Source: a virus
Length of the DNA: 22,012 nt
Direction: 5' to 3' (one strand)
IMG/VR virus record: IMGVR_UViG_3300008267_001165
Location: 1 to 22,012 of that record
Made by a program: the position numbers and the translations under genes. Under the pieces are notes generated by a model. The model saw only the letters and a list, made by a program, of their open reading frames with translations. It ran no database searches and was not told where the DNA came from. Within the stretch, counting starts at the first letter, position 1. Every line of letters starts with the position of its first letter. Positions 1-17,197 of the stretch are shown piece after piece.

Positions 1-1176
1 TAACAATTCTAATTCGTCTTTGCTAATGTCGAATAGGAAAGCATCGTAAGTATACAATACTAATTTAGTTTTATGACCTTTTATTATTGGTAATATATCT
101 TGTAATATTAAAATATTTTGTGATGTTTCTAAGTTTTGGACCCAATAGTTAAATAACTTTTGAGGACCCATATTAGGCAATTGTTCTTTATAGAATCTAT
201 GATTAGATATAGGACATTCAATATAACCCTCAGTATTGAACTGTTCCCATAAATTATCTATCAATGTTTGGGTTTTAGAGAAAAATTCTAAATGTTTATA
301 ATCACTAAAAATACCTCCATATAGTTGTTTAAAGGTAAGTTCTTTACTTGTTTTATAATCTACTCCATACAGTTGAGCCATATGTTCATGTATTGACTCT
401 TCTCCAAAACTATAATCAATTTGTTTGGCAATTAGAGTTGGGTGGTAAGAATCAATATCAATATCAACAAATCTTCCATTAGCCGAAACAAAGGCTTGCC
501 TACTTCCATCTTTAGGCAGCGCAGCAAAATTAATACCATTAAAACTATTTGATGGTCTTTTAGTTGTAGTATCCACATTATACTGCGAGTAAATCACATT
601 ACTCTTTATTGAATAGGAGGCATTGTGAGGTGTAAAGTAATCGTCTATACGCGATGTATTCACGTTAATACCGCTTGACTCTATGGTGTGGAAACACTCT
701 ATTGCTTTATTATAAAATTCTGAGTGTGGGGTAAAGTTTATTTGGGTAAAATACTCTTCACAACGTTCATAATGTTTAGCAATGGGAATAAATTTATTTA
801 TATCATTCCTGTTTGGGTATTGCCTATGATAATAATCATAAATTGGAAATGATAAATTCTCTATATTGATAGGAGAATGTATTAAATTCTTTTTATTTAG
901 AAAATACATACTTGTTTTCTTATCCCTAACAAATACTTCTTTATAACTTGATATAAATTTTTTAACTTGTTGAAATGGGATAGAAAATGATTCGTTGTGA
1001 AAAATAGGAATGATGTATCCTTTTTTATTACCTTCAGGTCTAATATAAACTAATGAAACATCATTTAGAGCAGGATGTATTAGATTATGATTTAAAATTA
1101 GTTCAACAAAACATTTATTAGTTTGCTGTTGAGCAAACTCTTCAAATTGATGTTGACTTTCTATTAAGTAATACAT
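1..1176 (-). CDS. Divergent family A DNA polymerase, 3' end beyond the window
   Basis: An open frame runs from an ATG at 1176 to the left edge (392 codons, C-terminus missing). The polymerase motifs of family A are visible in order. A T-x-T-x-R-P-S-N segment lies at residues 203-210. Motif A is VDIDIDSYHPTLIA at about 237-250, with D240 best aligned to the first catalytic aspartate. The O-helix/motif B is SKELTFKQLYGG, with K278, F282, Y286 and G287 spaced exactly as in E. coli Pol I K758, F762, Y766 and G767. Motif C is LVLYTYDAFLFD, with D378 in the place of the HDE aspartate. The N-terminal 140 residues look like a remnant 3'-5' exonuclease domain, but the D-x-E motif is replaced by FVELI (23-27), so proofreading is probably lost. 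Motifs A and C are only about 138 residues apart, against about 177 in Pol I, so the fingers are compact. The likely role is phage DNA synthesis. The start is the first ATG after the gap to the preceding gene; a weak AAAGG lies just upstream. Confidence 0.72.
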   Translation of the reverse strand, partial: MYYLIESQHQFEEFAQQQTNKCFVELILNHNLIHPALNDVSLVYIRPEGNKKGYIIPIFHNESFSIPFQQVKKFISSYKEVFVRDKKTSMYFLNKKNLIHSPINIENLSFPIYDYYHRQYPNRNDINKFIPIAKHYERCEEYFTQINFTPHSEFYNKAIECFHTIESSGINVNTSRIDDYFTPHNASYSIKSNVIYSQYNVDTTTKRPSNSFNGINFAALPKDGSRQAFVSANGRFVDIDIDSYHPTLIAKQIDYSFGEESIHEHMAQLYGVDYKTSKELTFKQLYGGIFSDYKHLEFFSKTQTLIDNLWEQFNTEGYIECPISNHRFYKEQLPNMGPQKLFNYWVQNLETSQNILILQDILPIIKGHKTKLVLYTYDAFLFDISKDELELL

Positions 1177-1221: not shown

Positions 1222-1749
1222 CTAAGGTTTTTCTTTATAATATTGTGTCCAATTTTCATTTAAATAAACACTTAAACCATATGCTCTTGATTTTTGTTCT
1301 GTTAATTCGGTTATATTTTTATTTGTTTGAGCAACCTTATTTATATCACCAGTTAATTCCCAAATTAAAGAAAATGTTTTATTAGTTTTCCAAGGTACAC
1401 TAACATCTTGTTTATCAAACAAATCTTTAGTAGCTTTAGAAATTTCTACAAATAAGAGTTGATTTAATCTTAAACTAAAATAGCGAATAAAACTTCCATT
1501 TTTATAGTCTTGAGGGGTTGGAAGTAAAGGAGCATATAACGGTTGATTAGTAGAAGGAGAAAAAGATGCATCCGCAGGTATTACAATTTCTTTTGAATTA
1601 GGATCATCAGGAGTCTTTTCAGTAAAATATTTTCCATTATAAAGTTTATAATAATTTCCAGTATATGGAGTTCCTTTAAATTTATAAACAAACTCTCCTC
1701 CGGATGTATATAAGTTAGTTTGAACTTTATTTTTTGGGATATACGTCAT
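1222..1749 (-). CDS. Unknown small structural protein, downstream of the hub gene
   Basis: This is a complete 175-residue protein that I do not recognise as a named family. It opens with a Tyr/Gly-rich segment (about residues 12-45) built from short repeats of the type YTSGGEF, PYTGNYY and NGKYFTE, which looks like a small beta-structured domain. A hydrophilic helical region follows (about 95-160). There is no signal peptide or membrane segment. Its ATG overlaps the stop of the preceding 1234-residue hub gene as ATGA, so it is very probably translationally coupled to it and belongs to the baseplate/virion set. It is the last gene before the polymerase. A baseplate or structural role is inferred from position only. 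Confidence 0.6.
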   Translation of the reverse strand: MTYIPKNKVQTNLYTSGGEFVYKFKGTPYTGNYYKLYNGKYFTEKTPDDPNSKEIVIPADASFSPSTNQPLYAPLLPTPQDYKNGSFIRYFSLRLNQLLFVEISKATKDLFDKQDVSVPWKTNKTFSLIWELTGDINKVAQTNKNITELTEQKSRAYGLSVYLNENWTQYYKEKP

Positions 1750-4700
1750 GGTGTATAAGTGTTTGGTATATTACTGTAGTTAAAGCCAAAGCCAAAATAC
1801 TCTCTATCAACATAAGATAATGCTTTATTATAGTTCCTTTCAATACCTGAAATTGCATCACAATCAGTTCTTGTACCATTTTGGTAGTCAGGTTTAGCTC
1901 TGCCACCATATCCACCCCAATCTCTATAGTATCTCCAAGCAAACTCATTAGGGCCAGATATTGCAAGTATGTTTCTTCTTAATATTTCTCTAACTAAAGG
2001 TACATATCCGGCTTCTGGGGTAGAGAAGCTATAGAAGAATTTGTAGATATTAGTACCTCCTTCTTTAGCCCATACTTTTCCATTAACATCTGAAGCATTA
2101 AATACATAAAATCCACTTTTTTCGGTTCCTGTAAGATTATTGTTAAATCCTCTAATTTTGCCTTCACCATAGCCTTGTTCTCCAATAGAAATAGTTAAAG
2201 CAGCTGTTACAATTAATTTTTTGCCAGATGGAGAAGTATTAGGGGCTAGTTGATTTATAACCTTTTCAACAATTTTAATAACTTCTGAGTAGGTTTTATA
2301 GGTATATTGGAAAGGAACTTGAGAATAACTATCCAAATTAACTTTAACAGATGGAAGATTTGTTACTGGGATTATCTGAGGAGCAGGGCCTCTTAACCAG
2401 TTTACAGATCTAGGATAGACAGTATTAACATTATTAGGAGAAGCTTTTCCGCACACTTCATCAGGATGTAGAGAAACTCTAGTGTCTACTTTACCTCCTG
2501 CAGCCGTTGAGGACCTAGCTTCAAATGTTTCTTGTACTGGGGTAAGGTTTCTAGAATCTGGGCCTCCAAGGCTATCCAGCATAGTAACCCAGCCTTTATC
2601 GTCTATTTTATGGGTAACTCCTCTATTAATAAATTTAATAGCATTTCGATAGTTAGAAGGTAAGATTTCATCATTAATAGTATATGATTCAAATAATTTT
2701 ATACCACTAATTCCATCCATTGTTAAATTAAGATTTACAGGTATAAATCCTTTTCCGGGTATATTATTATTTTTAGTGTATTGTCCTATATCATATTTAT
2801 ATAAATCTACTAATTCTTGTTTAGCATTATTAATTTGAACATCAGAAACACTTCCATTATCAATAGCAGATATTAATTCAAGCCTTGATTGCAACGCATC
2901 AGCATATGCATCTTTAGTAGCTTTATCTTCAATGCTTTTGTCAGCAGCACTAGATTTCTTTTTTACGATTCTATCTATATATCCAGTATTAAGTCTACTT
3001 AATGCTACGGCTTCTGCTCCTACCTGGTTAGCATCCGCTTGTGCAGCAACTGTAATTTGGGTAGCAAAATTATTGGTTAATTCTGTTTTAATTTGAACAT
3101 CAGTTACAAAACTGCCTTTTCCATTAAATGCTTCTCCCTCCCCGGCTGTGTTATTAACTAAATTAATATTAAGTTTAGTAGGAGTTGAGTCAGGGCTATT
3201 ATTGCTATATGTTTTGTTTGCATTAAGAGACTTAACATACTTCATTTGTTCTGGGGGGATGTTATAGTCTTGAATGTAAAGTATGTTAGCATTTTCATTA
3301 TGGATTACTTTAAAGTCATTAATGTGGCCTGTAGCAGCTTGAATTCCATCCATAATGCTTTGGATAAATTCAAATATAGATACATTCCCATCTTTATCTA
3401 TATGATTAGTAATAGTAGAAGAAATAAAATCCATATTTACTAAAATATGCATAAATTTCCCTAAAAATGGAAAAGAAGTTCTATATCCCGGTTCTATAGA
3501 AAATAATATACCTCCGCTTGCTTCTAATTCTGCTATTTGCGAAGGAGTAGCAGTTGTTTTAACATATCTTTGGCGACGTATTAATTTGATGTCTTGATTA
3601 AGACCAAATAATTCTGATTTGTCAAATTCTTCACCATATTGAGTGTTTAATTGGGTTACTTCTTCTGGGGTTAATACATCCACATTACTTAATGGCTCTA
3701 AAGATACATTAGGATCAGTAGTTGTAAGTAATCTATTTCCTCGGTTTATGATATTATAGTCATCTTCTGGCATTACTAGAGGGTCAAGATCCTTTAATTT
3801 ATCATATTTTGGATCTTCTAGCATCATACCACTATCTGCTTGAGGTACTATATCTACATATACTTGATACACGGTAATAGGAATTTGGGTAGCATCACTT
3901 CCTCCAGGAGCAGGAGGGGTAGGGGCAGTAAGACCTGCAGGTTTAATTAAACATACTTTAGGGTCTGAGCTTATTAGTCGAGGGATAGTAAAACATACAT
4001 TTTCTTCATAGTCATAGTCTATATAAAATAAAGGAGCATATGAATTACCTGTACCAAATGTTACATCAGAGCGAGTTGTATCATATTTTAATAAAAATGA
4101 CTCTATAATTCTTAATAGTGTTCCTAATTTTATATAATAAAATGCACCCCCAGTTGCTGATTCATCTGGGGAGGTTGTGATGTTGTTAAATTTGACTTTG
4201 TAGGCTTCTTGTTTTACTAAAATATGGTTTTCTTTAGTTGGGTCTTCTTCCTTGCGTACAAAATTAGGTTGAGATAAATTATATGAAGCAAATTGTTTAG
4301 TTATACTAGGGATGTTAGTTGTATTAAGATTAGACAGCCTTGGTGTAGATGCAAATCCATCTGAAGATGTGTATTTAAAATTATCAAGCATTCTCTTAAT
4401 ACCAAAAAGAATTTGATTAAGAGTAGATTTATTTTTATTAGCTATTGTTGAAGGTACTAATTGAGCATAATCAACATTTGCTTGGTTTTTACTTTCTTCG
4501 GGGATAGCCTCAAATTCTTCAGTAGTTAATGTAATTGGGCCTGATGTTGTATTTCCTGGGTAGTTAGCATTAACTTTTAATGATTCTATAACATCTCCAG
4601 CACTTCGAGCATGAAGTGTAATATCATAACCTCCGTCTTTTCTATATGACCAAGTAAAATTGGTTACGTATCCTAAAAATCCATCGTAATTACCACAAGA

Positions 4701-5450
4701 TACTTCGCGTTGGTTTTCTAAGAGACGTAAAATAACATCTTGAGTATTTCCTTCACTTATAAAATAATTATTAGCTGTATCAAGATAAGGATTAGTAACT
4801 AACTGTTTATTATTATCAAAATATATACTATGACCCCATTCTAATAAGATACTATATTTTAATCTTAAGTATAATGCATCTATGATTTTAAACTGGGCTA
4901 AGTTGTGGCATATAATTTGGATTGTAGCTTCTCTAACTGTTCCTTGTTGTCCTATGGGTTTAATATCTACAGAAGTAATACCAGGCACTGGGGAGCGGCC
5001 ATATGCTGTGAAGTCATTAGGATATACAGTATTTCCTTCCTTATTTGTAAGAAATCCTTTTTCACGTGTTGGTAACCCTAAACCTGGAGTGTATCCATAT
5101 GCCGTATCGTAATTAGTAGGGTCTACCCCTGATGTAAGGGCAGCATCATACCTAGATCCATCTTGTGTAAACTCTTCAAAGTATTTAAGCCCCCCTTGTA
5201 AAATAGAAGTTTTAGCTAATAAAGACCCAGCCAGATTAGGTACTCCTAATTCTTTAGCCTTAGCTTCAGATACATTTACTCCAGAAGTTAATTTAACCCA
5301 TGGAGCTTTAGTAGTCATGTAAAGCAAAATGTCTTTACTGTATGAACCATTTAAAGTAGTAGGGGATAAAACTTGTTGTCTAACTTCAATTTGTTTTTTT
5401 ACATATGGTAAAAATCCTTCACCAAGAATATTTCTTTTAATATCAGCCAT
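1746..5450 (-). CDS. Large baseplate hub protein with possible muralytic C-terminal domain
   Basis: A 1234-residue protein starting at ATG 5450, 16 bases after the LysM gene. Around residues 155-215 it carries PGITSVDIKPIG followed by LYLRLKYSILLEWGHSIYF, a pattern I know from large virion/hub proteins of myoviruses (the 'LxLRxGxxxLLEWG' type). Around 895-965 a second module, LNLTMDGISGIKLFESY up to VTMLDSLGG, resembles the C-terminal part of such hub proteins. The last 150 residues differ: ISIGEQGYG (E1091), RGFNNNLTGTE (about 1100-1110), IYKFFYSF and EFAWRYYRDWGG resemble a lysozyme/glucosaminidase-like fold with a catalytic Glu and an Asn-rich NNLxG motif. By analogy with T4 gp27-gp5, one polypeptide could combine hub and peptidoglycan-cutting tip. 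The hub role is fairly secure from neighbours and motifs; the enzymatic domain is inference. The stop overlaps the next start (ATGA). Confidence 0.72.
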   Translation of the reverse strand: MADIKRNILGEGFLPYVKKQIEVRQQVLSPTTLNGSYSKDILLYMTTKAPWVKLTSGVNVSEAKAKELGVPNLAGSLLAKTSILQGGLKYFEEFTQDGSRYDAALTSGVDPTNYDTAYGYTPGLGLPTREKGFLTNKEGNTVYPNDFTAYGRSPVPGITSVDIKPIGQQGTVREATIQIICHNLAQFKIIDALYLRLKYSILLEWGHSIYFDNNKQLVTNPYLDTANNYFISEGNTQDVILRLLENQREVSCGNYDGFLGYVTNFTWSYRKDGGYDITLHARSAGDVIESLKVNANYPGNTTSGPITLTTEEFEAIPEESKNQANVDYAQLVPSTIANKNKSTLNQILFGIKRMLDNFKYTSSDGFASTPRLSNLNTTNIPSITKQFASYNLSQPNFVRKEEDPTKENHILVKQEAYKVKFNNITTSPDESATGGAFYYIKLGTLLRIIESFLLKYDTTRSDVTFGTGNSYAPLFYIDYDYEENVCFTIPRLISSDPKVCLIKPAGLTAPTPPAPGGSDATQIPITVYQVYVDIVPQADSGMMLEDPKYDKLKDLDPLVMPEDDYNIINRGNRLLTTTDPNVSLEPLSNVDVLTPEEVTQLNTQYGEEFDKSELFGLNQDIKLIRRQRYVKTTATPSQIAELEASGGILFSIEPGYRTSFPFLGKFMHILVNMDFISSTITNHIDKDGNVSIFEFIQSIMDGIQAATGHINDFKVIHNENANILYIQDYNIPPEQMKYVKSLNANKTYSNNSPDSTPTKLNINLVNNTAGEGEAFNGKGSFVTDVQIKTELTNNFATQITVAAQADANQVGAEAVALSRLNTGYIDRIVKKKSSAADKSIEDKATKDAYADALQSRLELISAIDNGSVSDVQINNAKQELVDLYKYDIGQYTKNNNIPGKGFIPVNLNLTMDGISGIKLFESYTINDEILPSNYRNAIKFINRGVTHKIDDKGWVTMLDSLGGPDSRNLTPVQETFEARSSTAAGGKVDTRVSLHPDEVCGKASPNNVNTVYPRSVNWLRGPAPQIIPVTNLPSVKVNLDSYSQVPFQYTYKTYSEVIKIVEKVINQLAPNTSPSGKKLIVTAALTISIGEQGYGEGKIRGFNNNLTGTEKSGFYVFNASDVNGKVWAKEGGTNIYKFFYSFSTPEAGYVPLVREILRRNILAISGPNEFAWRYYRDWGGYGGRAKPDYQNGTRTDCDAISGIERNYNKALSYVDREYFGFGFNYSNIPNTYTP

Positions 5451-5466
5451 AACTTAATTTAATATT

Positions 5467-5769
5467 TTAACTTTGATTTAAAGTATTGTATCTTGACATA
5501 ACCCCAGCAATATCTGTTGGGATTCGAATTTGTGTTCCTAATGGTATAAACAATGAGTTTTGAAGCAAGTTTTCATTAGCAGTTGATATAATCCACCATA
5601 ATGAAGAATCACCGTAATACTGGCTTGCTAGGGTATCAAATCTATCACCATCTGTTGTAATAACATATATATCATTAACAGATAAGGGGATTCTAGGGTA
5701 TTTGTTATCTTTATAATAACGAATACCTGCTGAGTTTTTAATTATAGGTATGGTTTGGTATCTATTCAT
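5467..5769 (-). CDS. LysM-domain baseplate wedge/tail protein (gp53/gpX-like)
   Basis: A 100-residue protein. From about residue 33 it contains a LysM-like fold: DIYVITTDGDRFDTLASQYYG, then LWWIISTANENL and GTQIRIP. The D-R-F-D-T-L-A-x-x-Y-Y-G and W-I-I-x-x-A-N-x-N sequences are the usual LysM signatures in tail proteins such as P2 gpX and the C-terminal part of T4 gp53. In such phages the domain links baseplate parts or touches peptidoglycan. Its ATG overlaps the last 8 bases of the preceding tube-initiator/baseplate gene, so the two are probably translationally coupled. The length is normal for a stand-alone tail LysM protein. Confidence 0.8.
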   Translation of the reverse strand: MNRYQTIPIIKNSAGIRYYKDNKYPRIPLSVNDIYVITTDGDRFDTLASQYYGDSSLWWIISTANENLLQNSLFIPLGTQIRIPTDIAGVMSRYNTLNQS

Positions 5770-7519
5770 TTACAATTATGGATGTCAACTCAATAGGAGC
5801 AGGAGCTGTTATAAATCTTTCACCAAATTGCGGGGTAAAATTATGAAGAGGAGTAAAGCTTAAGTCTACTTCTATCATTTTAGGGAGAATAGCACCGCCT
5901 TCCTCAATAGAAATCTCACCATTTTCACCTCTATTTATATCCCACCCAGCTTCAAAAGAAGGTTTTAAACTAATGTTATTTATAATAATAGGTACATTAC
6001 TTAAATAATCCCCTATTGTAGCTTTAAGAATCATCCCCCTCATATATCCAGCATATGAGTAATTTGGGGCTGTAGTGCCTACTAAATAATTTAATTTATT
6101 ATATAAGGGAAGCATTTCTTTTCTAGAGTGAGCATACACCGTAAATGATAATGACATATCTCTAGAAAACCCGTTATATTTATAAAAATTTTCAGCTCTT
6201 CCAATATATTTAAACGACTGCCAATCTGCTTTAAAACTATCAGACATATTAGTTATGTATGCTCTGAAGAATAGGAACCAATCATCTTGCCTATCCTCTA
6301 TATTATCATTATTGAGGATTTGAAAAAAGAAAGGAATTAAATCCGGGTTAACAGCCACATCATTATATACCTCAGCATTGTTTCTAATTGTTATAACTGG
6401 TGTAGCATTGAATTTATCATATACTGTAGTGCGATTGGGGTTTAATCGGGCTGCGTTTTTTTCTTCAACGGTGCTAAAAAATACAGGTACATTTTCACCA
6501 TATGTTCTATCTCTATTAAAAACATTATAATCGGTATATGGTAAAACTTGTTTGTCTGGGGTAGTCCTAAACTCAGGATCTACAAATTCATTAATGGTTT
6601 GTCTAAAATCCTTAAAGCCAGTATAAAAAAATGAAAGTTGTGATTCAATTAAAGAATTACCAAACACGTATGTATTTCGATCTATGAATCTTAATGCACT
6701 AGGGTTATAATTATTAGTTCTATCACGAGGAGAACCATATCCTGTGCCATCAATTCTAATTCTGGTTTTGCCTATTAAACCTAAAAAAGAATCAGGGCCT
6801 CCTCTATATGAGTAGATATAGGCCTCATCAGTAGTATCTATATCGTAAAGAGATTCGGCTGCTAGTGTTTCCTCGACAGTAGGGGACCCAATTTGTTTAG
6901 TTTGGTAAATTAAAACTAATCGGTTTCCTGAGTTACCAAGATTTCTTTCATTTTCAAGTGTAACATCAAAATATCCTCTTCTATCAAAATCTAAGGGATT
7001 TAATCCTGTTTTATCTAAATGAAATCCAAATGGATTACCAGCTGCTTGAAGTATGGTTGAATAAGGTACATATACTCTTCTACCAGCGCCAGGAGCATTA
7101 ACACGAGTTCTTTCTAAAAGATTTTGTTTAACCGAAAATAAAGTACCGGCTAAATTTTTAGTATCAAATAAAAACCTACCAACTCTTAAAGCATCTGTAG
7201 GGACAGGGACATCTATATCAAATGGATTAGACTGGATTCTGAAAGCAATGTTAGGGTTTATTCCAAAAAGACCAAGTTGTGCAAATGTAATATCCCCTCC
7301 TATATTAATTTCAGGAACACCTGTACGAGCATTAGTAAGACTAAGAGCCCCCTGTCTTAAAAAAAAGTCAGGGGCTCTATTTAAAAAGTTTGCTCTAGAC
7401 TCATCAGTGTAGCCAGGTATAGGGACAACTATATACGGCTGGTTAGAGTCGTTATTGTATTTTAGAGATCTATAAGCAGTCTCTAAACTCCCTTCTATAA
7501 CACCTTTGAGTAAACCCAT
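5762..7519 (-). CDS. Tail tube initiator/baseplate protein (gp48/gp54-like)
   Basis: A 585-residue virion protein from ATG 7519 to TAG. The C-terminal third (about residues 435-575) has the order seen in proteins that cap the baseplate and nucleate the tube. It has YIGRAENFYKYNGFSRDMSLSFTV, then the KEMLPLYNKLNYL helix, YMRGMILKATIGDYLSNVPIIINNISL, a WDI segment and an ending of the type LPKMIEVDLSFTPLHNFTPQ. I recall this G-R-x-x-x-x-Y-x-G-x-x-R-x-x-x-L-S-F pattern from T4 gp48/gp54-type proteins. The N-terminal part (about 1-430) is rich in Asp, Arg and aromatic residues and I do not recognise it. Position between the tape measure and the LysM/hub genes supports the assignment. No signal peptide or membrane segment is seen. 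Confidence 0.62.
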   Translation of the reverse strand: MGLLKGVIEGSLETAYRSLKYNNDSNQPYIVVPIPGYTDESRANFLNRAPDFFLRQGALSLTNARTGVPEINIGGDITFAQLGLFGINPNIAFRIQSNPFDIDVPVPTDALRVGRFLFDTKNLAGTLFSVKQNLLERTRVNAPGAGRRVYVPYSTILQAAGNPFGFHLDKTGLNPLDFDRRGYFDVTLENERNLGNSGNRLVLIYQTKQIGSPTVEETLAAESLYDIDTTDEAYIYSYRGGPDSFLGLIGKTRIRIDGTGYGSPRDRTNNYNPSALRFIDRNTYVFGNSLIESQLSFFYTGFKDFRQTINEFVDPEFRTTPDKQVLPYTDYNVFNRDRTYGENVPVFFSTVEEKNAARLNPNRTTVYDKFNATPVITIRNNAEVYNDVAVNPDLIPFFFQILNNDNIEDRQDDWFLFFRAYITNMSDSFKADWQSFKYIGRAENFYKYNGFSRDMSLSFTVYAHSRKEMLPLYNKLNYLVGTTAPNYSYAGYMRGMILKATIGDYLSNVPIIINNISLKPSFEAGWDINRGENGEISIEEGGAILPKMIEVDLSFTPLHNFTPQFGERFITAPAPIELTSIIVNE

Positions 7520-7539
7520 ACATAAAAATACAAATTTAA

Positions 7540-7827
7540 TTAGTTTGAAGCAGGATCAAATATGTCTTCGTATGCTGGGGGGACATTTGTATTCATGTCA
7601 AGTTGTGAAGGTAAAGGTAAAGCATTTGGCATACCATCATTGTATGCTTGCCATTGGGTGTTTACTTCATCAAAATATTCTCCATTAGTTGAGTATCCTG
7701 GGGTGCCCTCAAAAGTACCATGTAGTTTTGATTGAGGAGTAGATGCAACTAAAGTAGGAGAATTAGTTGCAGTTGCTTGGCCTTGGAGTTGTGATCCTTG
7801 GGTGTTAAATAAATTTAAGATTCCCAT
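7540..7827 (-). CDS. Small Pro/Gln-rich structural protein, function unknown
   Basis: A 95-residue protein beginning MGILNLFNTQGSQLQG. A longer reading frame reaches an upstream ATG at 7881, but that would add an 18-residue Ile/Leu/Lys stretch read through the intergenic motif and the A/T-rich leader, so I chose the ATG at 7827. Visible features are a flexible Thr/Ser/Gln N-terminus, an SKLHGTFEGTPGY segment (about residues 34-46) and a proline-rich C-terminal half (PNALPLPSQLD, VPPAYEDI). There is no membrane segment or enzyme motif. It lies between the tape measure and the tube-initiator-like gene, so a minor tail or baseplate component is likely. Confidence 0.6.
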   Translation of the reverse strand: MGILNLFNTQGSQLQGQATATNSPTLVASTPQSKLHGTFEGTPGYSTNGEYFDEVNTQWQAYNDGMPNALPLPSQLDMNTNVPPAYEDIFDPASN

Positions 7828-7864
7828 TGTTATTAGTGTTTTTAAAATTAATAAAAGTATTTTT

Positions 7865-7877
7865 ATTATAAATATTA
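7865..7877 (-). promoter_or_regulatory. Recurrent intergenic motif, sense TAATATTTATAAT
   Basis: On the coding strand this reads TAATATTTATAAT. The identical 13 bases occur in the gaps at 12230 and 20227. It lies between the tape measure stop and the 95-residue gene, 37 bases before that start codon. A late promoter, an RNA-processing site or a translation-leader element are all possible; the sequence alone does not decide. Confidence 0.4.
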
Positions 7878-7882
7878 GCAAA

Positions 7883-10800
7883 TTAGGTTCTTGATGTGTT
7901 TATATTTTGAATAGTAGCAAGTTGTCTAGAATCTATATATGTGTTAACATTCTTATGAAGCAATTGAGTTTGTACAGTTGTTTGTTCTTTGTTTACTTGC
8001 AATAATTGATCTAACTTTGTTAACAAAGCAGTTAATTCTGTTTGATTATTTGTTATAGTAGAAACCCCATTATTATTTGTTGTTACATTAGAAGTAGTAA
8101 CAGGCGCAGTTACTAATTTAGTTTCAGGAACATTACTTAAAGGTGTAGGTTGAAGATTATTATTAGTTGTTAAATAATTTTCTTCTTTAATTTTCTGAGT
8201 TTCAGAATTAACTATATCATCAACAAATACTTTATTAATTGTATTTAAAAGAGATGAAGTTAAATCTGTTTTATTTAAAGTACTAGTAGCACTTAATTTA
8301 TTAGCAGTATCTGCAGTATTAGTTGATTTATTAATATCGTTTGCAAAGGATGATACGGACTTGGTTAAATCAGTTACTGTGGTTTTATTTGAAGCATCTA
8401 CAGTATTAGTTGATCTAACAGCATCGCTCATTGAAGATGAGGCCATTGTAGTTAAATCAGAAGTAGTGGCTTTAGTAACAGTATTTAACTTATTAGCAGT
8501 ATCAGCAAATGTTGATGCAGATGTAGTAAGAGTAGAAGCAATAGTTTTATCTAAGCTATCAGCTGTAGAAGTTTTTGTTTTAGCAACATCTGTTGAGGTA
8601 ATTTTAGAAATAATATTTGCGCTGTCAGCAAAAGAATTTTTAATAGTTTCTCCAATTTTAGAAAAAATATTTGCTTCTTTAATTTTACCTGTTTCTTGAG
8701 TTTTATCTGCTTCTTTAACTTTAGTTGTTTCAGATGCTTTTTCAATATTATTTAAATTTGCTAAATTAACTTTATCTAAAGTAGCAACAGCATTTAACTT
8801 AGTAGCATTAGTATTAACATTAACTGATTTAGTAAGCTCATCAATATTATTTACAAAAGTAGATGTTGAGCGAGCTAAATCATCAGTTGTTGAAACTTTA
8901 TTTAAAGTTTTAGCCGCACTTAATTTATTAGTAGTATTATCAGATATTTTGTTTAATGAAACATACATATCTTTAAATACTTCTGAAGAGTTTTTGCCTA
9001 AGAAAATTTCGTTTTTATCTACTTTAGCTATACCTTCTTGAAGCACTGAGCCACCTTCTGCAAGTTTGGGTGTGTTTTCAGGGGTTGTATTTAAATCATA
9101 AAGGGCTTTTCCACCAATACCTGCACTTGCTAAACCACCTAACATTCCTCCTATTACAGGAATCATACTTAAAGCGTCCTTAGCTACCTGCATTGTAAGC
9201 TGGGTTTCTAGGATTTTAGAAATTTTAGTTAGTAGGGAAACTTGAGTAGATGAAGATTTAGTTTGAGTAGCTATAGTTTCTTCTTCTCTAGCATCTCTAA
9301 GTTCATTTAGTTTTTTATTTTCTTCATTTGATTTTTTATTTTCTTCATTTAACTTGCTAAGTTCCTCTACTTGAGTTTGTGAATTACTAGTTAATTTTGA
9401 GGAGAATGAAGATGTAGAACTATTTAGTTTATCAAGTTCTTTAAATGAAGAAGGTATCCCCGGGGTAATGGATTGTGAAGTAGCAATTGGGTTAGATGAA
9501 GAAGGTAAAGGAGATTCTCTAACCAGATCAGTACCTACTTTTATAGCTTTACCTTTTGAAGCATCATATACTTGATCATTACCATCTAATTGTACCTCTC
9601 CAAAATCTCCAACTAATGTGGGTCCTTTTTTACGGTCAATCTTAGCATCTTTAACAGTATATTGAGATTTGGTTCTAGAAGTAGCTTTAGAAGTTTCAGA
9701 ATCCATTGCCAATGCGGCCACTGCTATGCCGGCGCCTATGGCTAAAGCCCCAATTCCTAAAGTAGCGGCAGATGCTGTGGTTATAGCAGATATAGCAAGA
9801 GCAGCAGCAGATATTGCCGCAGCTCCTAAATTATAAACCATAGGGAGCATAGCTAGTCCTAAACCAACTAATAGTCCTTTTAATAAAGCGGTGTTGCTTA
9901 ATAAAGTAGCAAATCCACTTAACATTGATCCTAAAGGACCATCTACTATACTAACAAATACATCTTTTAATTTTTCAACAGCAATAGCAAAACGTTCTTG
10001 AACATCTGCCTGGTCCATCATTGTGTCTAGCTGGTCTTCACCAAGCATTTTGGCTGCTTTTTCTTCACCATACTTTTGTTTGGCAAATTCATAAGCATTC
10101 TTTTCTTCCTCAGTTAGTGAACGTCCTAATTTGCTTAATGCTTCTTGTTCTACTAATGAATTAGCTAATTCTTCTCTTGACATACCAACAGCTTTAGCAT
10201 ATGCTTCCTGTTGGATTCGGTTCATTTTAGTAAATTCAGCTGAGCCTCCAATTTCTTTATTGATTTCTTCAGCCATTGAGCCGATATCACCCATTAAGGC
10301 ATAGTAACGAGCATTTTCAAGGTTAATTTCTTTACCTGTTAATAACTCAGCTTCTAGTTCGGCTGTAATGGAGCTTTCAAATTGGAGTAATGAATTAGCA
10401 ATGCTATCTGCTTGTTGTAAGTTAATACCTAATTCTTTAACTTTAACAGCAGCTTTAGCTAATGCTTCTGGTGTAGCACCTAATGATAATTTAATGGCAT
10501 TAGAAACATTAGCAGTATCTTTCATTAACTGCTTAATGTTAATAGATAATCCTTTTTGAATAGCTAATGCTTTACCAGCACCCATAAAACCAGTAACAGT
10601 GTCATCAACACTCTTACCAGTAGCCATTGATATTTTATTAATACCAATTAATTCTTCATTAGTAAAACCAGCTTGTTCTCTTAATTTAGTAAAAGTATCT
10701 AAATCTTTTTCAGCTATTTTAGCATTAGCTCCTAAGTTTTGGCTAATGGCTAAATAACTTTCTCCTAATTTTTTAGTAGTTACAAAAGTTGAGTTTGAAT

Positions 10801-12211
10801 TTCTAGCTATGTTTGCAAATTGTTCATTAACTTCAAGAGCTTCACCATAGCTGATATTCATGCCTTTGGCTAATTTTCCAGCATTGTTATCAATAGTTTT
10901 AAAAGCATCTACTAATTGAGTTACAACAAAAGTAACTTGGGTTATAGGGTTAGTTAAGTTCTTAAATAAAGAACTACCCATTGTTGTTATACCCTTACCT
11001 AAAACAGCTAAATGCCCATTCATACCTGCGTATTGGGCATTTTGGGCTGTTAATTGACCAAGGGTAATTTTATTTTGAGCATTTATTTGGGCTTTTTGGT
11101 GAAGTTCTCTGTCTTTTTCACTAATAGTAGATTTAACAACATCTAACTGGTCTAGTTGATTCTTTAAAGCAATACCTCCTAATCCTTGTCTTATTTCATC
11201 ATTAGTTAAGTTTCCTCTAGCCGCTGCAATTTGTTCTTCAAGTTGTTTTTCTTGCTCTAAACTATGAAGAATTTGACTATAACCCTTAGATTCTAATTCC
11301 TGTTGGGTTCGTTCTATACTACTTCTTAAATTAGCCTCTTCACTGCGTTTTTTTACAATTTTAGATGCAAACTCTTCCATTTCGGAAGTAGCTTGATTTA
11401 TACCTAAGGCTTGAGATAACTTACCAAATCCTAATTTATCTAAAGCAGTACTTAAACCTGCTACAATTGATCCACCTAATCCTAATAATGAATTTTGTTC
11501 TTTAAGCTCGTCTTGAATTCTTTTTATAGTAGCTTCAACAGCATTAAAATTAGCATCTACCCCTTGGATTATACCTGGGATTTCGTTAAGGTATGCTTCG
11601 GTTTTTTCAAGTTGGACATTTATCCTTTTAAATTGAGATTCAAGTTTAGCCTGTTCTTTGCGATATTCTTTTAAATCTTCTTTCTCTAAATCAGTTAATC
11701 TTCGGCGAGTTTTAACTTGCTCTAAATGTCTTATTTGATCTTTAACTCTATCTACATCATAGCTTTTAAATCTAGCCTGGTCAGCTAATCTTTCTTTATC
11801 TTGTTTTAGTACCTCTTCAGAGTTAGTTATGTTTTGTTTTTGTATAGCTAATTTTTCTTGAAGTTTTTTAAGATCCTTTTCATTTAAATCTACTATACTT
11901 TTCTGGTGGAGTTGAAGTTTTTCAGCTATAGATATAATGCCTTTATAAGCTCTAGTAGTTATAGTAACCCCAGAAGATGCATTTCCTAGTTCTGATACAA
12001 GTTTTTTAAAAACATTTAATGAATCAGAAATATCAGATGTAAGTTCATTATATTCTGATCTTAAAGTTTCAAGTTGTCGTCTAGCAGTTGCGGTAGAAGC
12101 AATTCGATTGGCTTCTTGTTGAGCCGCTGATTCTTGTAAACCTTCTACTACTTGCAGTAACTTAATCAGTTCTTTTAATTCAGCAGAACTAAGTGGATTT
12201 TGTGCAGCCAT
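7883..12211 (-). CDS. Tail tape measure protein
   Basis: A 1442-residue protein, the longest gene in the window, in the standard place downstream of the chaperone pair. Residues about 15-400 are almost continuous coiled coil (Glu/Lys/Gln/Leu heptads). The middle carries typical tape-measure segments (DAFKTIDNNAGKLAKGMNI, KAVGMSREELANSLVEQEAL). A strongly hydrophobic Ala/Gly/Leu stretch lies at about 765-838 (LGLAMLPMVYNLGAAAISAA, LGIGALAIGAGIAVAALAM), as expected for the part that may enter the host membrane. At about 1020-1060 comes the common GGSVLQEGIAKVDKNEIFL segment. The C-terminal 350 residues are Thr/Ser/Asn/Lys-rich with degenerate repeats. It acts inside the tail tube, sets its length and is probably released at infection. 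The start ATG is the first in frame; no Shine-Dalgarno sequence is present. Confidence 0.92.
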   Translation of the reverse strand: MAAQNPLSSAELKELIKLLQVVEGLQESAAQQEANRIASTATARRQLETLRSEYNELTSDISDSLNVFKKLVSELGNASSGVTITTRAYKGIISIAEKLQLHQKSIVDLNEKDLKKLQEKLAIQKQNITNSEEVLKQDKERLADQARFKSYDVDRVKDQIRHLEQVKTRRRLTDLEKEDLKEYRKEQAKLESQFKRINVQLEKTEAYLNEIPGIIQGVDANFNAVEATIKRIQDELKEQNSLLGLGGSIVAGLSTALDKLGFGKLSQALGINQATSEMEEFASKIVKKRSEEANLRSSIERTQQELESKGYSQILHSLEQEKQLEEQIAAARGNLTNDEIRQGLGGIALKNQLDQLDVVKSTISEKDRELHQKAQINAQNKITLGQLTAQNAQYAGMNGHLAVLGKGITTMGSSLFKNLTNPITQVTFVVTQLVDAFKTIDNNAGKLAKGMNISYGEALEVNEQFANIARNSNSTFVTTKKLGESYLAISQNLGANAKIAEKDLDTFTKLREQAGFTNEELIGINKISMATGKSVDDTVTGFMGAGKALAIQKGLSINIKQLMKDTANVSNAIKLSLGATPEALAKAAVKVKELGINLQQADSIANSLLQFESSITAELEAELLTGKEINLENARYYALMGDIGSMAEEINKEIGGSAEFTKMNRIQQEAYAKAVGMSREELANSLVEQEALSKLGRSLTEEEKNAYEFAKQKYGEEKAAKMLGEDQLDTMMDQADVQERFAIAVEKLKDVFVSIVDGPLGSMLSGFATLLSNTALLKGLLVGLGLAMLPMVYNLGAAAISAAALAISAITTASAATLGIGALAIGAGIAVAALAMDSETSKATSRTKSQYTVKDAKIDRKKGPTLVGDFGEVQLDGNDQVYDASKGKAIKVGTDLVRESPLPSSSNPIATSQSITPGIPSSFKELDKLNSSTSSFSSKLTSNSQTQVEELSKLNEENKKSNEENKKLNELRDAREEETIATQTKSSSTQVSLLTKISKILETQLTMQVAKDALSMIPVIGGMLGGLASAGIGGKALYDLNTTPENTPKLAEGGSVLQEGIAKVDKNEIFLGKNSSEVFKDMYVSLNKISDNTTNKLSAAKTLNKVSTTDDLARSTSTFVNNIDELTKSVNVNTNATKLNAVATLDKVNLANLNNIEKASETTKVKEADKTQETGKIKEANIFSKIGETIKNSFADSANIISKITSTDVAKTKTSTADSLDKTIASTLTTSASTFADTANKLNTVTKATTSDLTTMASSSMSDAVRSTNTVDASNKTTVTDLTKSVSSFANDINKSTNTADTANKLSATSTLNKTDLTSSLLNTINKVFVDDIVNSETQKIKEENYLTTNNNLQPTPLSNVPETKLVTAPVTTSNVTTNNNGVSTITNNQTELTALLTKLDQLLQVNKEQTTVQTQLLHKNVNTYIDSRQLATIQNINTSRT
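8230..8935 (-). repeat. Degenerate internal repeats in the tape measure C-terminus
   Basis: By eye, the protein segments NKLSAAKTLNKV, TKLNAVATLDKV, NKLNTVTKATTSDL and NKLSATSTLNKTDL are spaced through this stretch, with accompanying STFADTANKL and STNTADTANKL-type units. The corresponding DNA also shows imperfect duplications, for example a TTATTAGCAGTATC-type string near 8296 and again near 8485 on the plus strand. These look like diverged duplications in a low-complexity region. Confidence 0.5.
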
Positions 12212-12229
12212 GTTTTAATAAAAGTATAT

Positions 12230-12242
12230 ATTATAAATATTA
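12230..12242 (-). promoter_or_regulatory. Recurrent intergenic motif, sense TAATATTTATAAT
   Basis: This is an exact 13-base copy of the motif at 7865 and 20227, here 18 bases upstream of the tape measure ATG and inside the 44-base gap after the chaperone second frame. Downstream the leader continues ATATACTTTTATTAAAAC, similar to the leader of the 95-residue gene (TACTTTTATTAA). Confidence 0.42.
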
Positions 12243-12255
12243 AAGACTACCAAAT

Positions 12256-12555
12256 TTAGTATTTAGGAGGTTGCTTTAACTTACCCTTAAATTGGTCTGG
12301 GAGTTGAATTTTACCCTCACGGATAGCTTTAGTTTGAGAAATTAAATCTTTTGGCGCGTTATTATTATTCTTTTCTTCGTAGTATTCTTTCATTTTACGG
12401 AATACAAATTTACGAAGCCATATAGGCATATTGTAGATTGTTTCCCAATCATAGCCACCTTGGCCATGAAACACCATTTCATGAATTTGAGTAAATAAAT
12501 TAATCCTATAATCCCGAGCTAGCTCAGGCGTCAGGCCAAAAAAAGTTAAGTCCAA
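12256..12555 (-). CDS. Second frame of tail assembly chaperone, probably made by frameshift
   Basis: This frame is open for 99 codons but has no ATG at its 5' end; the only early start-like codon is a TTG at 12555, inside the end of the upstream gene. The next methionine is residue 27, in the middle of a conserved-looking helix (NLFTQIHEMVFHGQGG). The protein continues YDWETIYNMPIWLRKF and a charged tail, the small acidic/basic helical type seen in second-frame chaperone domains (lambda gpT, the P2 gpE' equivalent). It overlaps the upstream gene by 32 bases, and the shared bases contain a seven-T run. Translation as an extension of the upstream protein by a +1 or -2 shift explains the missing start. 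The position, directly before the tape measure, is where G/GT-type pairs lie. A separate protein from TTG is the alternative. Confidence 0.68.
   Translation of the reverse strand: MDLTFFGLTPELARDYRINLFTQIHEMVFHGQGGYDWETIYNMPIWLRKFVFRKMKEYYEEKNNNNAPKDLISQTKAIREGKIQLPDQFKGKLKQPPKY
12513..12544 (-). promoter_or_regulatory. Candidate +1/-2 ribosomal frameshift site with downstream hairpin
   Basis: On the sense strand, the upstream frame reads AAC TTT TTT TGG, with seven T at 12544-12538. After 9 bases comes a 6-bp hairpin, CCTGAG-CTAG-CTCGGG (12528-12513, one G-U pair), which also contains the upstream frame's TGA. A -1 shift meets TGA after two codons (TTG GCC TGA). Only +1 (or the equivalent -2) enters the downstream 93-codon frame at GGC CTG ACG. 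Phe tRNA re-pairs perfectly with UUU in either direction. Confidence 0.55.
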
Positions 12556-13195
12556 CTGGAATGTTGACTTTTGTGTCGCTTCCTTCGGGAAAAAAGGTCA
12601 GATCAACGTCTGGTTGTACCTCCCTTATATACTCCCTTAACGCCTTGGAGTCACGGGCTAACAAATACTTGTCTACGAATTCTCTAATGTGTGGGTTTTC
12701 TGTATTTCCTTCAACAGAAGTAATCATGTACTTTAAACGGGTTGACAACTCAGGTACATTATTTTTATAAATCTTCTTTAAACCTTCTAACTCAGCATTG
12801 ATTTTTTTCTCATCAGCACTTGTTAACAACTTAAATGTAATATCTATTTTAGTTGAAGGAAGAGTAAACTTAAATTCATTTACGCCTGGGTTGTAGAGGT
12901 GGTCTAGGATAACTTTGTTTTCAATTGTAGAAAGATCAACTGTTTGTTCTTCACCACCCCACATAAAGGTATAATCTTTACCATAACCCAAAATGCGAGC
13001 AGCCACTAATAACGCTAACTCGTCTAGTACTGTGCCTTTTTGGATATATGATTGGTTGGTTAAAATATCTTCTTCCCTTGCGGTCATATATTTCATTTCA
13101 ATCGTACCACTTGAAAGAGGATTTTCTTTAGGGTATACTAAACCCTTTGAAGGTAAGTCCACAACCTCTGTTGGGACATTAAATTTGTTTTCCAT
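12524..13195 (-). CDS. T4 gp26-like baseplate/tail assembly chaperone protein, first frame
   Basis: A 223-residue protein beginning MENKFNVPTEVVDLPSKGLV. The open frame extends to 13261, but that extension is read from the terminator's T-tract and gives a poly-Phe peptide, so I chose the ATG at 13195. The opening LPSKGLVYPKENPLSSG, the segment MKYMTAREEDILTNQSYI, the LD-x-LL-type helix and GYGKDYTFMWGG resemble the T4 gp26-like base plate family; that assignment is from memory. In this gene order (tube, this gene, tape measure) the product would act as a tail assembly chaperone binding the tape measure. Its C-terminus (GLNFFWPDA) lies on a seven-T run. A +1 shift there after F219 would give a fusion of about 312 residues. 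No Shine-Dalgarno sequence precedes the start. Confidence 0.75.
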   Translation of the reverse strand: MENKFNVPTEVVDLPSKGLVYPKENPLSSGTIEMKYMTAREEDILTNQSYIQKGTVLDELALLVAARILGYGKDYTFMWGGEEQTVDLSTIENKVILDHLYNPGVNEFKFTLPSTKIDITFKLLTSADEKKINAELEGLKKIYKNNVPELSTRLKYMITSVEGNTENPHIREFVDKYLLARDSKALREYIREVQPDVDLTFFPEGSDTKVNIPVGLNFFWPDA

Positions 13196-13244
13196 AAATA
13201 ATTTTGTTATAACGTTTTTGTTTGTCCTATATACATATATGAAG
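13196..13244 (-). promoter_or_regulatory. Leader between terminator and chaperone gene; promoter expected here
   Basis: Because the terminator ends the sheath-tube transcript, the chaperone and tape measure genes need readthrough or a new promoter in these 49 bases. The sense strand holds CATATATGTATATAGGACAA followed by AACAAAAACGTTATAAC. The alternating TATATGTATATA is the only promoter-like stretch. It does not match the ATATTTAT-core motif found in other gaps, nor the Bacteroidota TAnnTTTG box. Confidence 0.25.
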
Positions 13245-13282
13245 AAAAAAAAAGCTCGCAAAAAATGCGAGCTCTTTTTATA
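13245..13282 (-). terminator. Strong intrinsic terminator after the tail tube gene
   Basis: On the sense strand, the 8-bp perfect stem AGCTCGCA/TGCGAGCT has a TTTTT loop (plus-strand bases 13253-13273) and is followed directly by a run of eight or nine T. Upstream A residues can pair with the T-tract through a G-U, lengthening the stem. The plus strand also ends the hairpin with CTTTTT, so it may work in both directions. It lies 27 bases past the tail tube stop and 50 bases before the next start codon. Confidence 0.88.
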
Positions 13283-13299
13283 GTATTTAGCTTTAAATC

Positions 13300-13788
13300 T
13301 TAGTAGTTCAATATAGCATAGTCCATACCTATAGTCATAGTAATATTTACTGCTGTATTTTCGGTATCATAGCTATAATCACCAAAGTTAGCGTCCTTAA
13401 TGAATGCACCTACAAGCACCCATTGGCTTACAATATCACCTACAGGACCTAGAACGTTAAGTTCAAGTCGCTTTTTGTAGAAGTCAGAGTAACCATCTCT
13501 ACCTGTTACAGATTCGTGTGATAAACGAACCCATTCCATGATTGTCTGTGCACCCGAAGGAGTAATTGGGTCAAATAATGTCATAGTTACATCACCCCAA
13601 GTGGTTTTACCCTTAACTTTTCTTTGAACGTTAATGTGATTTAATATTACTTCACCTTGTTGTAGATTTACAGCACTCATACCTTTAATCATATAGGCAG
13701 GAACGTTATCTAGCGACACCTGGAACCTGTGGGGTTGTTTAGGTTCAAATGGTGTGAAGAACATTTCGTTATAATTTAATATTGCCAT
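13300..13788 (-). CDS. Tail tube protein (gp19-like)
   Basis: A 162-residue protein from ATG 13788 to TAA. The pattern is that of contractile-tail tube subunits: an N-terminal NRFQVSL-like strand (HRFQVSLDNVPAYMIKGMSA, residues 21-40), a GKTTWGDVTMTLFDPITPSG strand-turn (about 60-79), a short helix AQTIMEWVRLS, and late strands NVLGPVGDIVSQWVLVGAFI and TMTIGMDYAIL. Length and placement directly after the sheath gene fit T4 gp19-type tubes. Subunits stack into the rigid inner tube that DNA passes through. The gene is followed by a strong terminator, consistent with high expression of the sheath-tube pair. Confidence 0.9.
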   Translation of the reverse strand: MAILNYNEMFFTPFEPKQPHRFQVSLDNVPAYMIKGMSAVNLQQGEVILNHINVQRKVKGKTTWGDVTMTLFDPITPSGAQTIMEWVRLSHESVTGRDGYSDFYKKRLELNVLGPVGDIVSQWVLVGAFIKDANFGDYSYDTENTAVNITMTIGMDYAILNY

Positions 13789-13804
13789 TGTCTTAGTTTT
13801 TTTA

Positions 13805-13819
13805 TTTGTTAATAAATAT
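13805..13819 (-). promoter_or_regulatory. Recurrent intergenic motif, sense ATATTTATTAACAAA
   Basis: The sense 15-mer ATATTTATTAACAAA is repeated exactly upstream of the sheath gene (15590-15604). Here it begins just after the sheath gene and ends 16 bases before the tube ATG. It shares the ATATTTAT core with the motifs at 7865, 12230, 15884 and 20227. Confidence 0.45.
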
Positions 13820-13835
13820 ATTATGATTTAAAACC

Positions 13836-15554
13836 TTATGCAGGGAAAGTAGCACCTGTTGGAGTAATATTAAAGTCGAGGTAAATAAATTCAGCTGTTT
13901 TAGTTGGCTGTAAATAGATTTGACCTATTAACTCATTTCTATCAATTACTTCAGCAGAGTTATTAGTACTATCCATTACTACTTTAAATGCATATAAACC
14001 TTGGCGTTGTTGAATTGATTCAAGATATGGTATAACTTGTGCTAAGAAAATATTTCTTGTAACTTGTGTGTTTTGTTCAAACACTAAATTATTAGCAACT
14101 CTAGAAATAGTAGATTTTAATACAATCAACAAACGACGAACATTTACACGATCAAGTGCTGAAGGTTTGCGTTGTAAGGTTTTCTGACCATAAACTGCAG
14201 TACCAGTGCCTGGGAATGAAGCTAATGGGTTAATGTTGCTAAGATATAAAGTATCACGTTGAGCTACACTTAATTTGTATTCAGCACGAATTACTCGGTT
14301 TAACCCACCTCTGTTAATACCTGCAGGTGCAAACCAAGGCTCAGATACGCTATCAGTAAAGGCATATACTCCAGGAATAAATGTTGAAGCTGGGACCCAA
14401 ACTGTTCTGCCAGTAGCTACATCTTTAGTAGACACCCAAGGCCAGTAAGTAGCAGCATATGAAGTATCAAAGTTATTAGCTTGAGCAGTTGCAGAGCTAA
14501 CTGAACCACCGTAGTTTAATAAGTCAAATACATAAATATTATCACCTCTGTTTTGGGTATTTTGAATAATTGTTTCAATTTTAGATCCATGACCTGCAAA
14601 CTCATAAATTAAACCAGGAGTGTAAAGAGCATTAAACTTATAATCATCATTACTCATAAGAGCAATAGCATTTGTATAGCTATTTGCTGTTAATCCTTGA
14701 GTATTAGTTGCAATAATGTCATTATAGAATTTAACCCCAGCTATAATATCACCTGTAGCACCAGCAAATGCACCTGTTTGAGCTATTGGTAAAGAAGCAG
14801 TGTACGAAGCAACAGAAACTTGACCTGCAGAGTTAAGATAATTAGGAGTTGTGTTATTTACAGCTTTAACTCTTACATATCTTGAGCGGTTAGCATATGA
14901 TCCTGTAATGTTTAATTGGTTATTAACAACATCATAGTTGTAATCATAGTTACCAATTACTGCTTCAACATAGTTTGGAGCAAGTGGATCTAATGATAAT
15001 TGAGTCCATTGTTCCAAAATAATTGGGTTATTAGTATTATCATCACCTCTTCTAATTAATAAAGTAAATGTACCTGAAGATGTGTTTGGGGCTATAATTT
15101 CCCAACGTAAGTTATTAACAGATCCACTTACTAAGCCTCCTTTTGAGTCTTGAGAGCCTGAGCTGTTCATAATAACACCTTCAGAAAGTGTTTCTAATTC
15201 AAATGCAGGTTGAGAAGGGGCTTGGGCACTTGATGAAATTTGACCAGTAGCTGGGGTCCATTCTAATGAGTTTGATACTACACGAGTAATCATTAATGTC
15301 TCACCACCATTTTGGAAATAGTTGTAAGCTGCAATAGATGTCATGTAAGAATAAGGAGCACCACCACTGATAAGAAGATCACCAAATATGTTGGTGAAAT
15401 CACTGTATGTGGTTACAACAGTAGGAATACCAATAGGGCCTCTAACTGTAGGGCCTATAATGGCTGCTCCTACAGCAGGGGGTCTTTGGCTTATAAAAGA
15501 TGTATCATTTTCTCTTGCTAATACACCTGGGGAAAGTAAAACGTTAGTCGCCAT
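13836..15554 (-). CDS. Contractile tail sheath protein
   Basis: A 572-residue protein beginning MATNVLLSPGVLARENDTSF, the classical sheath opening in which an LSPGVxxxExD segment is followed by a globular GPTVRGPIGIPTVVTTYSDF domain. A large, variable middle (about 100-400) carries beta-rich insertion domains. The conserved C-terminal domain (about 467-572) includes LDRVNVRRLLIVLKSTI, a helix ending NTQVTRNIFLAQVIPYLESI, and the terminal strand DRNELIGQIYLQPTKTAEFI. This is the polymer that contracts and drives the tube into the envelope. The upstream gap holds the ATATTTATTAACAAA motif and no Shine-Dalgarno sequence. Confidence 0.94.
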   Translation of the reverse strand: MATNVLLSPGVLARENDTSFISQRPPAVGAAIIGPTVRGPIGIPTVVTTYSDFTNIFGDLLISGGAPYSYMTSIAAYNYFQNGGETLMITRVVSNSLEWTPATGQISSSAQAPSQPAFELETLSEGVIMNSSGSQDSKGGLVSGSVNNLRWEIIAPNTSSGTFTLLIRRGDDNTNNPIILEQWTQLSLDPLAPNYVEAVIGNYDYNYDVVNNQLNITGSYANRSRYVRVKAVNNTTPNYLNSAGQVSVASYTASLPIAQTGAFAGATGDIIAGVKFYNDIIATNTQGLTANSYTNAIALMSNDDYKFNALYTPGLIYEFAGHGSKIETIIQNTQNRGDNIYVFDLLNYGGSVSSATAQANNFDTSYAATYWPWVSTKDVATGRTVWVPASTFIPGVYAFTDSVSEPWFAPAGINRGGLNRVIRAEYKLSVAQRDTLYLSNINPLASFPGTGTAVYGQKTLQRKPSALDRVNVRRLLIVLKSTISRVANNLVFEQNTQVTRNIFLAQVIPYLESIQQRQGLYAFKVVMDSTNNSAEVIDRNELIGQIYLQPTKTAEFIYLDFNITPTGATFPA

Positions 15555-17193: not shown

Positions 17194-17197
17194 ATTT

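Follow-up and report, generated by a model that had tools for sequence, protein, structure and literature searches.

The window, that is, the whole stretch of 22,012 nt of viral DNA that we analysed (IMG/VR record IMGVR_UViG_3300008267_001165), opens with a truncated gene on the minus strand next to a tail module. The first-pass annotation took the gene product for a compact family A DNA polymerase of a distinct phage lineage that might replicate DNA without proofreading or together with a separate exonuclease subunit. The locus raises the question of whether the protein really is a family A polymerase and what part it plays in the phage.

From the ATG, 392 codons run stop-free to base 1 of the window, where the window edge cuts the gene, and the C-terminal 32 aa lie beyond. 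Coding on the plus strand at positions 1-1176 was ruled out, as stops occur throughout. The missing 32 aa, which the annotation had advised to seek in an adjoining contig, were supplied by the public contig L006, which matches these 392 aa with 100% identity. The full protein comprises 424 aa and is as compact as had been claimed. The gene is under purifying selection with a dN/dS of about 0.1, as calculated for six related sequences in 15 pairs, which are not independent and in which dS is partly saturated. All features are listed in Table 1.

Table 1. Positions in the window of the polymerase gene, its motifs and domains, and the adjacent tail genes.
Feature	Position	Strand	Basis
divPolA1 gene, residues 1-392 of 424	1..1176	-	open frame from ATG at 1176; complete in L006:875-2146
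DEDDy 3'-5' exonuclease fold without D-x-E, residues 1-150	727..1176	-	AlphaFold2 and VIA-align
T-x-R-P-S-N...N motif, residues 205-216, counterpart of Klenow TGRLSS (R668)	529..564	-	hhalign to E. coli 668 region
Motif A DIDSYHPTLIA, residues 240-250, catalytic D240	427..459	-	D240 aligned to E. coli D705
His245, steric-gate position (Klenow E710)	442..444	-	His in 95/95 divPolA1
O-helix K278-x3-F282-x3-Y286-G287 (Klenow K758, F762, Y766, G767)	316..345	-	homolog alignment and hhalign
Motif C LYTYDAF, residues 374-380, catalytic D378	37..57	-	aligned to E. coli H881-D882-E883
Tail/baseplate genes upstream (baseplate, tape measure, tube, sheath), context only	1222..15554	-	PHROGs

Family assignment of the gene product

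Tblastn matched the protein to gp001 of Flavobacterium phage immuto (E 1e-82, 39% identity, 99% query coverage). This phage leads the divPolA1 lineage described by Yutin et al. 2024 (Virol J 21:200, PMC11348598). According to the text of that paper, 14 phages with sizes of 155-190 kb carry divPolA1, and every one of them also encodes a regular polymerase, which belongs to family A, B or C; divPolA1 itself has kept the palm, has a truncated thumb and carries an inactivated exonuclease. The window's protein is a member of this lineage. The proposal of a distinct phage polymerase lineage was therefore right as to distinctness, but the lineage is not new, since it was already published. In the literature searched, only this paper and its preprint use the name divPolA1, and we found no biochemistry or genetics of divPolA1 there.

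The window's protein shares with immuto gp001 the palm residues, the lost exonuclease motif and the shortened length. It differs from it by belonging to a separate lineage within divPolA1, and relatives with 90-100% identity were found only in IMG/VR contigs. At least 582 stretches in IMG/VR matched, and further matches were found in Microcystis phage Mel-JY01 and in LR756508, a phage of 484 kb. We gathered 95 complete divPolA1 homologs. The copy in the cyanophage Mel-JY01 (L004, 50397-51623; 31% identity over 77% of the query) is annotated as a hypothetical protein and had not been labelled as divPolA1. Downstream of it come RecA, a protein of 5' nuclease size annotated as DNA polymerase I, and a helicase, arranged as in other divPolA1 loci.

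A search of Pfam and NCBIfam with the window's single protein returned nothing relevant, and the curated cut-off of PF00476 (DNA_pol_A) was not reached. A weak match to DNA polymerase was obtained with PHROGs; phrog_26480 and other weak matches were treated as chance. PF00476 was matched individually by 15 of 67 divPolA1 members at E<=0.01, with immuto gp001 scoring 43.9 bits (cut-off 34.3), and phrog_17 (DNA polymerase) was matched by 27 of the 67. When the alignment of these 67 sequences was compared by hhalign to a profile of five canonical PolA proteins, the probability was 97.5 and the E value 7.8e-12, with the motifs in register. Since PF00476 gave no match for the window's member, its link to family A was drawn from this profile-profile comparison and from structure.

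The AlphaFold2 model of the protein reached a pLDDT of 93.1 and a pTM of 0.90. VIA-align of the whole chain gave a Z of 25.4 with Pol1 of M. smegmatis (rmsd 3.6, 385 residues aligned), about 25 with Bacillus Pol I and 24.8 with KlenTaq, rows within 1 Z counting as tied; Z values with Pol I large fragments were about 25 over 385-395 residues. Foldseek agreed with a Pol I-type fold and had Pol theta as its top match. Based on the profile comparison and on the predicted palm, fingers and exonuclease fold of Pol I, the gene product is a genuine family A polymerase, as the annotation had assumed. The text of Yutin et al. agrees on the family identity and on a retained polymerase activity (PMC11348598). 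A rough tree separated divPolA1 from the five canonical PolA proteins with full support, but with its long branch and small number of canonical sequences it does not resolve the sister group of divPolA1.

Polymerase site and N-terminal domain

Motif A, the O-helix and YTYDAF (residues 375-380) are present in the order described by the annotation, on the minus strand. D240, K278, Y286, G287 and D378 are invariant in 95/95 complete homologs, and hhalign aligned D240, K278, Y286 and D378 with D705, K758, Y766 and D882 of E. coli. The pattern LY[TV]YD[AS]F was one of the two search patterns, so that the invariance of motif C follows in part from the search itself; neither pattern contained H245 or the O-helix. 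The same active-site residues occur in immuto, Mel-JY01 and LR756508, all three of which were found by tblastn. T205, R207, P208, N210 and N216 are also invariant in the divPolA1 homologs. As judged from alignment and model, the polymerase site was shown to be intact in divPolA1 with regard to both aspartates.

E. coli Klenow and the Bst large fragment share both domain folds and motifs A, B and C with divPolA1. In contrast to them, divPolA1 has motifs A and C 39 residues closer together (138 residues in 84/95 homologs versus 177 in E. coli Pol I), in good agreement with the roughly 40 residues noted before, and has a truncated thumb according to the text of PMC11348598. Furthermore, residues that contact the incoming nucleotide are exchanged. 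All five canonical PolA proteins compared have Glu at the steric gate, whereas all 95 divPolA1 homologs have His245. The position of R754 is mostly Tyr (85/95), that of H881 is Tyr377 in 95/95, and that of E883 is Ser or Ala in 95/95, so that the YDA noted in place of the usual HDE is Y-D-S/A across the family. F282, the counterpart of the helper Phe762 of Klenow, is kept in 94/95. Regular phage PolA proteins (immuto gp199, T7 gp5) belong to family A as well, but unlike divPolA1 they keep the Glu steric gate, Arg754 and HD(E/Q), and immuto gp199 also keeps the exonuclease carboxylates. Since E710->His, R754->Tyr, H881->Tyr and E883->Ser/Ala affect residues of dNTP selection, the enzyme may be weakly active or altered in its activity. 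In E. coli Pol I the steric gate is formed by E710 (PMC13228545). In the text of PMC11348598, figures excepted, we found no discussion of a steric-gate His.

The N-terminal domain (residues 1-150) gave a pLDDT of 93.4 when folded alone, and VIA-align superimposed it on Klenow 329-511 with a Z of 12.2 (rmsd 2.7-2.9, 142 residues aligned). Profile alignment of this domain to canonical exonuclease domains gave no signal, and the homology is seen only in the fold. The D-x-E at strand 1 is missing in all 95 homologs, as the annotation had stated for this protein, although the FVELI found in its place retains one conserved Glu (E25, 97%). Position 89, the likely counterpart of D424, is non-acidic in the homologs; the residue match to D424/D501 is based on secondary structure and not on coordinates. 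The exonuclease domains of Bst and Taq Pol I are also without activity. In two other divPolA1 members all three exonuclease aspartates are replaced, as given in the text of PMC11348598. Proofreading is likely lost in divPolA1, as far as can be inferred from sequence and model.

E25, H34, H60, D85, K87, Y136, E137 and E140 are still conserved in this domain, and its dN/dS was below that of the polymerase part in 14 of the 15 pairs (commonly 0.04-0.07 versus 0.11-0.16). Because of these conserved residues and the stronger constraint, the former exonuclease domain seems to be kept for something. A remodelled exonuclease site formed by the conserved E25, D85, E137 and E140 is possible.

Gene neighbourhood and the second polymerase

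The placement of the polymerase beside the tail module was confirmed by PHROGs, which identified tail sheath (9.5e-70), tail tube (4.3e-23) and baseplate (2.9e-12) genes upstream. The same tail genes were found upstream in 53/55 homologous loci. Further along the window, two adjacent glycine-rich proteins (16114-18265, Pfam Gly_rich_2) are probably tail fibre or adhesin paralogs. The neighbouring proteins encoded at 18420-20213 and 20249-20572 share a module at their C-termini (FNINHGFNTRNLHITVY...IVYIS), which represents a duplicated end domain of tail fibres.

The window itself ends inside divPolA1, and the downstream genes were counted only in homologous loci on long enough contigs. In these eligible loci, a gp32-like SSB was present in 72/72, a RecA/UvsX-like recombinase in 60/61, a 5'-3' (flap-type) exonuclease in 48/48 and a DnaB-type helicase in 43/43. 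Wherever SSB, RecA, 5' nuclease and DnaB occurred together, they stood in this order (59/59 loci). The names of the downstream genes were taken from Pfam matches of the genes on the L013 contig, and that of RecA from homology to the immuto annotation.

A regular polymerase of family A or B is also encoded in 6/6 relatives of at least 150 kb. It is a PolA in immuto and the L032 contig, and a PolB in the L013 contig (where divPolA1 and the window's protein share 91% identity), in Mel-JY01 and in the 158 kb contig of L076; the 484 kb phage LR756508 has a PolB plus a Pol III alpha-like protein. In having a second polymerase and replication genes directly downstream, relatives of the window's protein resemble immuto. 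The window is a 22 kb fragment ending inside the gene, and the second polymerase was seen in relatives only. No conclusion can be drawn from the records under about 75 kb that lack a second polymerase, as they are fragments. DivPolA2 of the barbaviruses is likewise a second divergent PolA beside a regular polymerase, but going by its description in the text of PMC11348598 it has no exonuclease domain, an unrelated N-terminal domain and a variable neighbourhood.

The exonuclease domain was intact in all three regular polymerases scanned, namely, immuto PolA (DNA_pol_A_exo1), the PolB of the L013 contig (DNA_pol_B_exo1) and Mel-JY01 PolB. These findings speak against a replicative enzyme without proofreading, and the presence of a regular polymerase in all six relatives led us to reject the compact enzyme as sole polymerase. 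The suggested separate exonuclease subunit did not hold up either: a DnaQ-like RNase_T match over the cut-off was present in only 1/6 relatives, the 484 kb phage, and a weak RNase_T match in the L032 contig lies inside the reading frame of the regular PolA.

The PolB of LR756508 appears to be interrupted at motif B and at motif C (DTDS) by insertions resembling inteins (L121, 260623-261162; L122, 266583-266900). Regular PolB frames of ~556-584 aa in four contigs (L133, L134, L135, L136/L137) stop between motifs B and C. In the L105 contig the rest of PolB follows ~1.3 kb further on, as a split PolB gene or an insertion.

Role of divPolA1 in large phages

As a regular polymerase is encoded by each of the six relatives that reach 150 kb or more, divPolA1 is most likely an accessory polymerase and not a proofreading-free replicase. 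Together with the separately encoded 5' nuclease it would do the job of a split Pol I. It could fill short gaps that arise from lagging-strand primer removal or recombination-dependent replication, a task in which poor processivity and missing proofreading would do little harm. We have moderate confidence in this explanation as a whole, i.e., an enzyme with an intact polymerase site and a lost D-x-E that is accessory to a regular PolA or PolB and fills gaps. That the split Pol I with its flap nuclease is combined with a His gate that changes sugar selectivity and with an exonuclease domain repurposed for docking SSB, helicase or DNA appears rather improbable.

The replication-gene context goes with divPolA1 and not with the regular polymerase (text of PMC11348598), which stands against an accessory role and leaves a function as main replicase open. 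The regular PolA or PolB would then be the accessory enzyme, and replication would lack proofreading in cis. The fixed SSB-RecA-5' nuclease-helicase neighbourhood of divPolA1 fits this assumption, and so does the regular polymerase, which has a variable neighbourhood (text of PMC11348598) and belongs to family A in some phages and to family B in others, as could be expected of a dispensable gene. However, the regular enzymes are full-size with exonuclease domains, while divPolA1 has a shortened A-to-C region and altered dNTP-contact residues. The same text describes a truncated thumb for divPolA1, and it reports that main phage replicases switch between families, too (PMC11348598). We regard the main replicase as unlikely. 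A translesion or repair polymerase that acts with RecA on damaged or modified DNA would agree with the loss of proofreading, with the adjacent RecA and SSB genes and with the annotation of 7-deazaguanine DNA-modification genes in immuto (DpdA, QueC/D/E, FolE; L040, 12856-13650 and nearby). The top Foldseek match, Pol theta, is a family A translesion/end-joining enzyme, but Klenow and Bst have scores close to that of Pol theta and the fold does not show function, and we consider such a role doubtful.

Two further explanations start from the active site. With His at the position of the Pol I steric gate (PMC13228545) in 95/95 members and Glu in the five canonical PolA proteins, divPolA1 might have a relaxed sugar selectivity and insert or extend ribonucleotides, for example, when extending or replacing RNA primers. 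His is bulky itself and could take over as the gate, the helper Phe is kept, and weak toprim matches in relatives suggest a separate primase, DnaG being annotated in immuto; this makes the assumption quite unlikely. The several substitutions might even point to a catalytically dead structural relic, but the invariance of both catalytic Asp and of the O-helix Lys and Tyr in 95 homologs and the low dN/dS make this highly improbable.

As regards this window by itself, the analysis chiefly corrects the annotation, from a proofreading-free replicase to a known polymerase that is most likely accessory. The analysis adds the 95 complete homologs, the His gate in all of them, the near-universal downstream order, and the copies in a cyanophage and in a 484 kb phage. 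DivPolA1 is abundant in virome contigs, and almost every locus sampled has the same replication genes next to it. Large phages with two polymerases pose the question of how the enzymes divide synthesis among themselves, and since Flavobacterium phage immuto is a cultured representative of divPolA1, this division is directly testable.
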